Positions 49,226 to 57,282 of a stretch of DNA of 57,282 nucleotides are shown piece after piece. The notes below the pieces were generated by a model, which saw only the letters and a program-made list of their open reading frames with translations, had not been told where the DNA came from and searched no databases. This DNA comes from a virus: the IMG/VR virus record IMGVR_UViG_3300022929_000029, positions 1 through 57,282 of that record. One strand, given 5' to 3'. The position numbers and the translations under genes are program-made. Within the stretch, counting starts at the first letter, position 1; every line of letters starts with the position of its first letter.

Positions 49226-50332
49226 ATGAATGTACTATCACTGTTCGATGGAATGTCTTGTGGTCAGATTGCACTAGATAAGCTAGGCATAAAGCCTAAC
49301 CACTATTTTGCAGCCGAAGTGGACAAGTACGCCATCCAAGTAACAAAGGTTAACTATCCAAACACAATTCACCTTGGTGATGTGAGGGATGTTATGTGGC
49401 CTGAGACATTTGAAGGCATCAAGATTGATCTATTGATCGGCGGTAGTCCATGCCAAGGATTTAGCTTTGCTGGCAAGCAATTAAATTTTGACGATCCCAG
49501 AAGCAAACTATTCTGGGAATATGTACGCCTACTAAAAGAATGTAAGCCTAAATATTTCCTGCTTGAGAATGTACGAATGAAACAAGAAAGCATGGACGTG
49601 ATCACTGAGGCACTAGGTGTCGAGCCTGTCTTTATCAATAGCAGTCTTGTGTCTGCACAGAACCGACAACGATACTACTGGACAAACATTCCATTCGATG
49701 GCTTACCAGAGGACAAAGGTATTATGTTGCGTGACATACTAGAGGATGGTGTTACAGATAGAGACAAGGCGCACTGTATTGATGCTAACTATTTCAAGGG
49801 TGGAAATCTCAAATCATACTTTGAGAAACATAGGCGGCAACTTGTGTTTGATTTTGACCTAAAGAAATCTGGCCTTATTCAAGTTGGGGAGACAGAAGAG
49901 TACCAGCATTATAACAACAGCCAGATCAAACGTGTGTATCATCCTGAAGGCAAGGCACCTACGTTGCTTGTCAATCAAGGTGGCAATCGTGAGCCAAAGG
50001 TTGCCACGCATGACCCAAAGGGTGGACGCATAGTGAACCGTAGGCTGGACGAAAATGGTACACGCAAAGACTACGACAAGAGCATACCATTACAGCCTCG
50101 TGTCGAGGTGAGAGAGGACAGCAAAACAAACTGCTTATCGACAGTATACAAAGACAGTGTAGTTGTCGAAGACATGACATGGCGTAAGCTGACACCTCTT
50201 GAGTGTGAGCGACTGCAGACTGTACCTGATGGGTACACTGCACACGTCAGCAATACACAACGATACAAAATGCTGGGCAATGGTTGGACAGTGGATGTTA
50301 TCACACACATCATGAAAGGAATGGAACTATGA
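49226..50332 (+). CDS. C5-cytosine DNA methyltransferase
   Basis: 368 residues, a complete set of motifs: I FDGMSCG (7-13), IV GGSPCQGFSFAG with catalytic C76, VI FLLENVR, VIII SAQNRQRYYW, IX RKLTPLECERLQTVPDGY, X MLGNGWTVDVI. It transfers a methyl group from SAM to C5 of cytosine. The target-recognition region lies between motifs VIII and IX (about 160-310). No restriction enzyme gene is nearby, so this is an orphan enzyme that probably protects the phage from host restriction or alters regulation. Confidence 0.95.
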   Translation: MNVLSLFDGMSCGQIALDKLGIKPNHYFAAEVDKYAIQVTKVNYPNTIHLGDVRDVMWPETFEGIKIDLLIGGSPCQGFSFAGKQLNFDDPRSKLFWEYVRLLKECKPKYFLLENVRMKQESMDVITEALGVEPVFINSSLVSAQNRQRYYWTNIPFDGLPEDKGIMLRDILEDGVTDRDKAHCIDANYFKGGNLKSYFEKHRRQLVFDFDLKKSGLIQVGETEEYQHYNNSQIKRVYHPEGKAPTLLVNQGGNREPKVATHDPKGGRIVNRRLDENGTRKDYDKSIPLQPRVEVREDSKTNCLSTVYKDSVVVEDMTWRKLTPLECERLQTVPDGYTAHVSNTQRYKMLGNGWTVDVITHIMKGMEL

Positions 50333-51556: not shown

Positions 51557-51835
51557 ATGCCTAAGTTAGATTTAACACCTGCGAATACACCTGATGAGTT
51601 AGAAGGTTTGATTGAATATGCTTCAGGGTTAGCACTGGAAGACAGGATGAATGATCCAGAAGGAACCCATCCATTTGATAAGTTTGTGCGACAGTATGAG
51701 GATGAGTTAGTTGTTGCTGAACTTTTAGATAAACTAAAGGTTCAAGCTATGAACAGACTTGCACCTTCCTTTGTGGAGTGGCAGCAAAACCAACGGTCAA
51801 AGTTTAAACCTTCAAAGATGTTTCCAAAGGAGTGA
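51557..51835 (+). CDS. Hypothetical early protein
   Basis: 92 residues with GAGGTGA upstream. Helical and acidic; the end (SFVEWQQNQRSKFKPSKMFP) is basic. It lies directly before the ArfA-like gene. No family is recognised. Confidence 0.55.
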   Translation: MPKLDLTPANTPDELEGLIEYASGLALEDRMNDPEGTHPFDKFVRQYEDELVVAELLDKLKVQAMNRLAPSFVEWQQNQRSKFKPSKMFPKE

Positions 51836-51838
51836 GAA

Positions 51839-51994
51839 ATGAAACGCATTAGCCCTATCAATCCTATCGCTAGAGCAGTTGCCCTATCAAGGCGTAGAGC
51901 TAGTGTCGTGCCACCTAAGAAGGGTAAGGGTTCTTTCAACAGGAAGAAACTCCCACCCGTTATAGAGGACTATAAAGGCTACAAAGGTAATTAA
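51839..51994 (+). CDS. ArfA-like alternative ribosome-rescue peptide
   Basis: 51 residues with AAAGGAG upstream of the ATG at 51839. A gapless 29-residue comparison with E. coli ArfA pairs NPIARAV with ArfA NAIEALL, and KKGKGSFNRK with ArfA KKGKGSYMRK. ArfA enters ribosomes stalled on broken mRNA and recruits RF2. The basic KKGKGS-x2-RK end is the part that sits in the empty mRNA channel. A phage copy could keep translation going when mRNA is degraded or tmRNA is limiting. It ends 10 residues after the match region, as truncated active ArfA does. Confidence 0.6.
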   Translation: MKRISPINPIARAVALSRRRASVVPPKKGKGSFNRKKLPPVIEDYKGYKGN

Positions 51995-52074
51995 TATTAT
52001 CTTTTATTATCTTCTTTCTTTCTCTAAAGAGGATTATACACCTGGAAAATTTTTATGTCAAGGAGAAAAATAAA

Positions 52075-52103
52075 TTGACATACTGGATTATGTATTGTAT
52101 GAT
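52075..52103 (+). promoter_or_regulatory. Near-consensus promoter inside the early arm
   Basis: TTGACA (52075-52080), 17 bp, then TATGAT (52098-52103), 11 of 12 consensus positions, in the 180-bp gap after the ArfA-like gene. TGTCAA at 52056-52061 makes an inverted repeat with the -35 (13 bp between), echoing the control-region palindromes. It would boost the genes leading to MazG and the primase-helicase. Confidence 0.65.
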
Positions 52104-52161
52104 GCTATTTATGTTGGTGTTCGCTATATTAGGAACGCTAAGTTTAATTTTTGTCAGGTAA
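52075..52161 (+). CDS. Possible 28-residue membrane micropeptide
   Basis: AGGAG at 52061-52065 precedes a TTG that opens a frame for a hydrophobic peptide (TYWIMYCMMLFMLVFAILGT...). The same bases form a strong promoter, so the frame may be accidental. The good ribosome site upstream of a non-ATG start is the reason to note it. Confidence 0.25.
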   Translation: MTYWIMYCMMLFMLVFAILGTLSLIFVR

Positions 52162-56679: not shown

Positions 56680-57282
56680 AACGTATAGCACTTGACATTG
56701 AAACAGATGGTATTGACGCAAAGGTAGTACACTGTGTATGTGGTCAAGATGTAGATACAGGAGAAAGGTTTGAGTGGCATGAAAATAACAATGGCTTTGA
56801 CAGCCTGCCTAGATTACTATCTACATATGATGTTATTGTTATGCACAATGGCGTATCATTTGATGCACCAGTATTAAACAAACTACTAGACGCAAAGATA
56901 CCTCTGTCTAAGATACGTGATACTCTAATACTATCACAGATTGTAGACCCTTCCCTAGAGAATGGACATAGCTTGAAAGCTTGGGGTCAAAGACTAGGGG
57001 AATACAAAATGGATTACTCTGACTTTTCTCAGTTTAGCATGGAGATGTTAGAGTATTGCAGACAGGATGTTGAAGTAACTATTAAGTTATACAAACACCT
57101 GTTGCCTAAACTACAGAAGTTCTCTGCTAGGTCTATCAAACTAGAGCATGACATACGTGCCATCATAGACCGACAAGAGAAGAATGGATTCAGCCTTGAT
57201 ATACCAAAGGCTTCTATCCTTGTAGCTAAACTTGCAGAAGAAGCTGCGGATATCGAACAAGAGATGCAGGAAATCTTCCCGC
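56676..57282 (+). CDS. Family A DNA polymerase, N-terminal 3'-5' exonuclease part (cut by contig end)
   Basis: The first 202 codons of the polymerase that continues at base 2. Exo I ALDIETDG (D7, E9), Exo II MHNGVSFDAPVL and Exo III YCRQDVEVT are complete, so proofreading should be active. It starts with an ATGA overlap. Joined at the overlap (57133 to 1) the frame is kept and gives 552 residues. Unlike the HMO-2011 type polymerase I know of, no DnaJ-like zinc insert is visible between exonuclease and polymerase parts. Confidence 0.95.
   Translation, partial: MKRIALDIETDGIDAKVVHCVCGQDVDTGERFEWHENNNGFDSLPRLLSTYDVIVMHNGVSFDAPVLNKLLDAKIPLSKIRDTLILSQIVDPSLENGHSLKAWGQRLGEYKMDYSDFSQFSMEMLEYCRQDVEVTIKLYKHLLPKLQKFSARSIKLEHDIRAIIDRQEKNGFSLDIPKASILVAKLAEEAADIEQEMQEIFP
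57134..57282. repeat. Right copy of contig-terminal overlap
   Basis: Matches 1-149. The last 29 bases differ from the left copy at six positions, each a synonymous third-position change in the polymerase gene (for example CAG/CAA, TTT/TTC). The two contig ends therefore come from slightly different strains. Confidence 0.9.

Follow-up and report, generated by a model that had tools for sequence, protein, structure and literature searches.

A phage-encoded peptide in a divergent branch of the ArfA family, with a putatively altered release-factor contact

Known rescue factors and the phage gene

The best described relative of the peptide studied here is ArfA of Escherichia coli (YhdL, PF03889), in which Leu19, Leu24 and Phe25 form a hydrophobic patch that binds RF2 (Trp319). 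The E. coli protein is functional when cut at Asn47, and its A18T variant binds RF2 without bringing about release (PMC5378476, in excerpt). ArfT of Francisella tularensis is also short, has a KGKGS-like basic stretch, is not controlled like arfA and recruits RF1 or RF2 for rescue; the excerpt of PMC6299226 reports low similarity to ArfA and describes no hydrophobic residue at the Phe25 position, as in the branch described below, a likeness of description and not of sequence. BrfA of Bacillus subtilis, again compared by description, is a small RF2-dependent rescue factor with its C-terminus in the mRNA channel, and differs in its N-terminus and in having a terminator inside the open reading frame (PMC8012679, in excerpt).

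Phage ArfA as a kind is already known. The product g10 of Citromicrobium phage RXM has been named as such in print (PMC8953757, in excerpt), as has gp30 of Pelagibacter phage HTVC027P, whose expression is high both early and late (PMC12753301, in excerpt), and database records name ArfA in Ochrobactrum phage OC, Brevundimonas phage Bambus and Pseudoalteromonas phage J2-1. All five assignments are annotation only, and no functional test of any phage ArfA was found in the literature searched. Like the peptide studied here these are short phage-encoded peptides, and those of RXM, HTVC027P, OC and Bambus have in common with it the N-P-x-A start and the KG[KR]G motif. The ArfA of J2-1 has a bacterial-like DNKLKQIVTSDLFRTRVE and is without KGKGS. 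At the position of Phe25, RXM, HTVC027P and Bambus carry Tyr or Phe, whereas the branch described here carries Arg or Lys; as far as the literature searched shows, a branch with this exchange is undescribed so far.

The stretch of DNA analysed (the window) is a virus record of 57,282 bases with 39% G+C. A sequence-only reading had proposed a 51-residue ArfA-like product at 51839-51994 on the plus strand, and the open reading frame is indeed complete from ATG to TAA, with a Shine-Dalgarno-like AAAGGAG at 51826-51832 upstream of the start. Judged by this strong ribosome-binding site, its relatives and the purifying selection acting on it, the frame is a real gene. Its likeness to E. coli ArfA lies in an ungapped register of 29 residues, the motif KKGKGS-x2-RK and a length near that of the processed active form, residue 51 corresponding to position 57 of the E. 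coli protein. It differs in its shorter N-terminus, in having no Leu19/Leu24/Phe25 patch and, at the level of the gene, in a normal stop codon and no clear hairpin inside the frame. The reading we prefer, with a probability of roughly 0.6, is that the gene encodes a phage member of the wider ArfA family, in a divergent branch, which would rescue ribosomes through an altered release-factor contact.

Relationship to the ArfA family

Residues 8-36 align with residues 14-42 of E. coli ArfA without gaps and with 12 of 29 positions identical, the motif KKGKGS-x2-RK included. This was the match that the sequence-only reading had reported, and it held against chance: none of 2000 composition-preserving shuffles reached 12 identities in any ungapped pairing of 29 residues (maximum 11). 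The motif itself, which that reading had placed in the mRNA channel, is intact in the form KKGKGS[YF]-x-RK at residues 27-36 (KKGKGSFNRK, codons at 51917-51946). Moreover the peptide scored 20.3 bits against a profile of 34 distinct bacterial ArfA cores, a score reached by 0 of 20,000 whole-peptide shuffles (best 12.2; 18,998 shuffles received a score and the remainder fell below the reporting level).

A search with ArfA-family profiles gave a more divided answer. Pfam ArfA was the sole Pfam family matching at E up to 10, with E=6.3e-5, but its 22.8 bits lie below the curated cut-off of 25.5 and cover residues 21-37 only; NCBIfam gave no match. Direct BLASTP against ArfA aligned residues 20-36 only (E=6e-4), and phmmer with the single peptide did not find ArfA in the PDB. 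Most of this Pfam and direct signal is the KKGKGS-x2-RK motif. When the N-terminal half was compared with bacterial ArfA directly, 145 of 3000 shuffles reached its score, which is not significant, and therefore the direct case for ArfA rests on the motif. Within the branch, 35 of the 37 members of alignment A1 match Pfam ArfA at E up to 1 (best 7.7e-7).

Homology beyond the motif was found through a bridge of cultured phages, namely Roseobacter phage CRP-212, RXM, HTVC027P, Caulobacter phage Cr30, Bambus and others (73 rows of matches, made up of 15, 32 and 16 records plus repeats, of which those fetched were read). With the C-terminus held fixed, the N-terminus of the window peptide obtained a score against the bridge profile that 0 of 5000 shuffles reached; the same was found for five of the other seven branch members, with one shuffle for L053 and 15 for L060. 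The hhalign probability was 96.5 for this step and 97.6 for that from the bridge group to bacterial ArfA, the hhalign E-values being those of single comparisons. In addition, the canonical CRP-212 peptide scores 33.3 bits against Pfam ArfA, and the N-terminal halves of CRP-212, RXM and HTVC027P are each significantly similar to bacterial ArfA (0 of 3000 shuffles). A profile of 10 bridge peptides, with no bacterial sequence in it, retrieved ArfA chains only from 177,635 PDB sequences (E=6e-11 to 2e-10), the next match having E=1. When the profile was built from the branch by itself, the six distinct ArfA sequences came first, but weakly (E 0.019-0.057).

Some matches were set aside. That of alignment A3 to ArfA in the PDB was not counted since A3 contains E. 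coli ArfA itself, and the test was repeated without that sequence as profiles A4 and A5. A Klebsiella phage match (H19) was dropped as chance, its frame having no start codon, and an Enterococcus phage peptide (PHROG 37108) was kept out of the bridge as it has only the C-terminal motif in common. One relative, L234, was left out of one peptide set by a distance limit, and the N-termini of L242 and L244 are shortened by the start chosen.

Sequence comparison thus supports homology of the window peptide to ArfA, as proposed earlier, though mainly through intermediate phage sequences. Since the Leu19/Leu24/Phe25 patch is absent, we class it with a divergent branch that is related to the family, and not as an E. 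coli-type ArfA.

Loss of the RF2-contacting patch

The conserved N-terminal motif of the branch, NPIARA in the window (residues 8-13, codons at 51860-51877), is in register with E. coli ArfA from Asn14 onward, and residue positions were counted from this shared Asn14. On this count Leu19, Leu24 and Phe25 are replaced by Ala13, Arg18 and Arg19, the codons for Arg18-Arg20 (51890-51898) standing in place of Leu24-Phe25-Arg26. The anchored sets comprised 47 of 48 peptides of the window's branch (group A; L079, by its sequence a contig-end fragment, was dropped), group B, a second phage group described below, less five of its 33 peptides, and the bacterial ArfA less two of 34. At the position of Phe25, 31 of the 47 branch members carry Arg, 15 Lys and one Gln, and none carries a hydrophobic residue. 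All 32 anchored bacterial ArfA have Phe there, and the 12 bridge peptides all have Tyr, Phe or Leu; each of the 62 distinct canonical phage peptides from IMG/VR (drawn from the 80 best-ranking of at least 301 relatives) has Tyr or Phe. Nearly all branch members also have Arg or Lys at the Ala18 position and Arg at that of Leu24, and in 45 of 47 the Leu20 position is large and hydrophobic. Phe25 is the one position of the patch that tells the branches apart cleanly, since most phage peptides, both branch and canonical, lack a hydrophobic residue at the Leu24 position, and canonical ones often have an acidic residue at that of Leu19. ArfA-type rescue dependent on RF2, as had been supposed from the sequence, is weakened by the change of the three residues to Ala, Arg and Arg and by the Arg or Lys at Phe25 in 46 of 47 members.

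The sequence itself documents that the peptide is homologous to ArfA and that the patch is gone; a function in rescue, the most likely one, is what we infer. The peptide would be made during infection and would enter ribosomes stalled at the end of a broken mRNA, its basic tail passing into the vacant channel; a host release factor would then cut the peptidyl-tRNA and the ribosome would return to phage translation. Since arginines take the place of Leu24 and Phe25 in the branch, the release-factor contact should differ from that of E. coli ArfA, and could perhaps resemble that of ArfT, which does without a hydrophobic residue at that place and can use RF1 or RF2. The idea, raised with the first reading, that rescue on cut mRNA would benefit the phage is plausible. 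The window phage also encodes a T7-type endonuclease I, which is consistent with nucleic-acid breakdown and is not proof of it.

It is rather unlikely that the peptide is a plug, occupying the A site and the mRNA channel with no activation of a release factor and thereby slowing translation, for example of host messages, or protecting idle ribosomes. Such a role would fit the retention of the channel motif alongside the lack of a hydrophobic residue at the Phe25 position in all 47 members, the place of the gene in the DNA-metabolism arm, and the A18T variant of E. coli ArfA, which likewise holds RF2 without release. However, ArfT still rescues with RF1 or RF2 although it is without the same hydrophobic residue (PMC6299226, in excerpt), and the coding sequence is under constraint. 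Improbable in turn is an ordinary ArfA, working with RF2 exactly as in E. coli and compensating for the loss of Phe25 by another residue; the ungapped 29-residue register and the large hydrophobic Leu20 position speak for it, but the contrast between no hydrophobic residue at Phe25 in the branch and its constancy in bacterial and canonical phage peptides speaks against it. Nor is it at all likely that a basic peptide which binds nucleic acids and has no link to ribosome rescue has converged on KKGKGS, as might be argued from the share of the motif in the direct signal, the very basic composition of the window peptide and the existence of relatives without the motif, since its N-terminal half has significant similarity, in the same ungapped register, to phage peptides which are themselves clearly ArfA.

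Conservation, genome setting and hosts

Relatives of the window peptide were found on 78 viral contigs. The median dN/dS of 0.34 over 668 usable pairs from 56 distinct coding sequences, and of 0.28 in the 173 pairs with dS below 0.8, is that of purifying selection. Between the window and L003 it is 0.04: the first 50 codons differ from those of the L003 group at six codons, all synonymous, and the L003 group is longer by one GYK repeat at the C-terminal end. At 54 of 72 loci one of five window proteins of DNA metabolism has a homologue, in every case encoded on the same strand as the ArfA-like gene. Homologues of the window terminase, portal and coat proteins were found at 0 of 72 loci within the fetched stretches, many of which are a few kilobases long. 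By these neighbourhoods many marine phages keep the gene in their DNA-metabolism arm. A tblastn search with the window peptide and one relative against cultured phages gave no match at E up to 10. The branch pattern matched 26 stretches in the genome collection, with no relative among them by tblastn, which suggests, within that search, that the branch is not carried as a prophage by sequenced bacterial genomes.

Four loci found in the first scan (L074, L075, L077 and L078) no longer have KKGKGS at all. A second large phage group (group B; L276, L288, L315, L332, L335 and others) keeps NPVAKA...VVP and has NKKKYNRKRDK where the branch has KKGKGSYNRK, and some of its members have an ArfA-like middle (RYRQRIV). 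Going by these peptides, whatever such peptides do can be done without the channel motif. Group B peptides are matched by DUF7230 (PF23876), some members of which start with NPVAK and which, in the members read, has no KGKGS; the window peptide did not match PF23876 at E up to 10. The ArfA of phage J2-1 lies above the Pfam cut-offs of both ArfA and DUF7230, and from the sequences (L340-L346 and L270) DUF7230 looks related to ArfA. In one sample of 229 genomes DUF7230 occurred in seven, ArfA in two and both in none.

The window gene is read to the right, with a C5-cytosine methyltransferase (49226-50332) on one side and a MazG and primase-helicase block on the other. The replication genes are similar to those of HMO-2011-type and Pelagibacter phages: the ribonucleotide reductase has 75.6% DNA identity to Puniceispirillum phage HMO-2011 and the primase-helicase 46% to Pelagibacter phage HTVC115P. 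The terminase has 41% to Pelagibacter phage HTVC023P. On these resemblances the host is likely a marine alphaproteobacterium. Contig L093 continues from the right end of the window into its left end, with about 149 bases matching both ends (1-149 and 57134-57282), so that a circular or circularly permuted genome is probable; an exact terminal repeat of 20-399 bases was not found at the ends. Rfam, tRNA and tmRNA searches of the window and a PADLOC run on the peptide gave no result.

With its own stop codon and an end near the processed length of ArfA, the gene probably bypasses the nonstop-mRNA control of bacterial arfA. The E. coli arfA control showed its strong hairpin inside the frame (z -3.62), and the window frame has no outstanding one (z -0.53 and -1.05). 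A 9-bp hairpin at 51983-52004 (plus strand) holds the stop codon in its loop (z -2.73 for region 51930-52040, 1 of 200 shuffles); it is short here and far longer in L058, where the hairpin likewise includes the stop codon (z -5.06 and -5.69). That a nonstop-mRNA hairpin characterises the branch as a whole was rejected, with z below -2 in 3 of 28 distinct regions against 8 of 100 controls and mean z of -0.25 against -0.18. Directly after the gene stand back-to-back near-perfect sigma-70 promoter-like sites (52033-52103). The minus-strand site (52033-52061), a perfect TTGACA-17-TATAAT beginning 67 bases past the stop codon, is directed back over the ArfA-like gene and conserved in L058, so that an antisense RNA across the gene is possible. 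The divergent plus-strand site (52075-52103) agrees with 11 of 12 consensus positions. L003-L006 and L058 have both sites at a closely similar position, L058 with about 67% DNA identity across this stretch. By eye, a possible TTG-start hydrophobic peptide of 28 residues (52075-52161, AAGGAG upstream) overlaps the forward site.

ArfA-like frames were also observed in other cultured phages. Caulobacter phage Cr30 has an unannotated one of canonical type (L085, 1950-2096), and its host is genetically tractable, uses ArfB and encodes no ArfA according to the excerpt of PMC11633108. In Roseobacter phages CRP-212, CRP-9, CRP-13 and CRP-603 an ArfA-like frame lies in the +1 frame inside an annotated hypothetical coding sequence, upstream of the coat gene region (L080 2989-3114; L081 2989-3129; L261 989-1114; L262 971-1114), and is likely, from its sequence, an overlapping unannotated gene; the full KGKGS motif is present in CRP-212 only among the four.

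Table 1 of PMC11633108 gives arfA in 0 of 2,376 alphaproteobacterial genomes. We may tentatively suggest, with the class of host assigned from phage likeness, that a large and mostly marine phage branch has kept the channel sensor of ArfA, has exchanged the RF2-activating aromatic residue for Arg or Lys, and uses RF1 or both factors in hosts without ArfA. If this were true, phages would serve as a reservoir where the release-factor partners of rescue factors become more diverse. The branch divides the two jobs of ArfA in natural sequences, channel sensing being conserved and release-factor activation replaced. It would allow two questions to be tested directly: how a release factor can be activated when the known contact is missing, and whether hosts that have no ArfA of their own receive ribosome rescue from phages.
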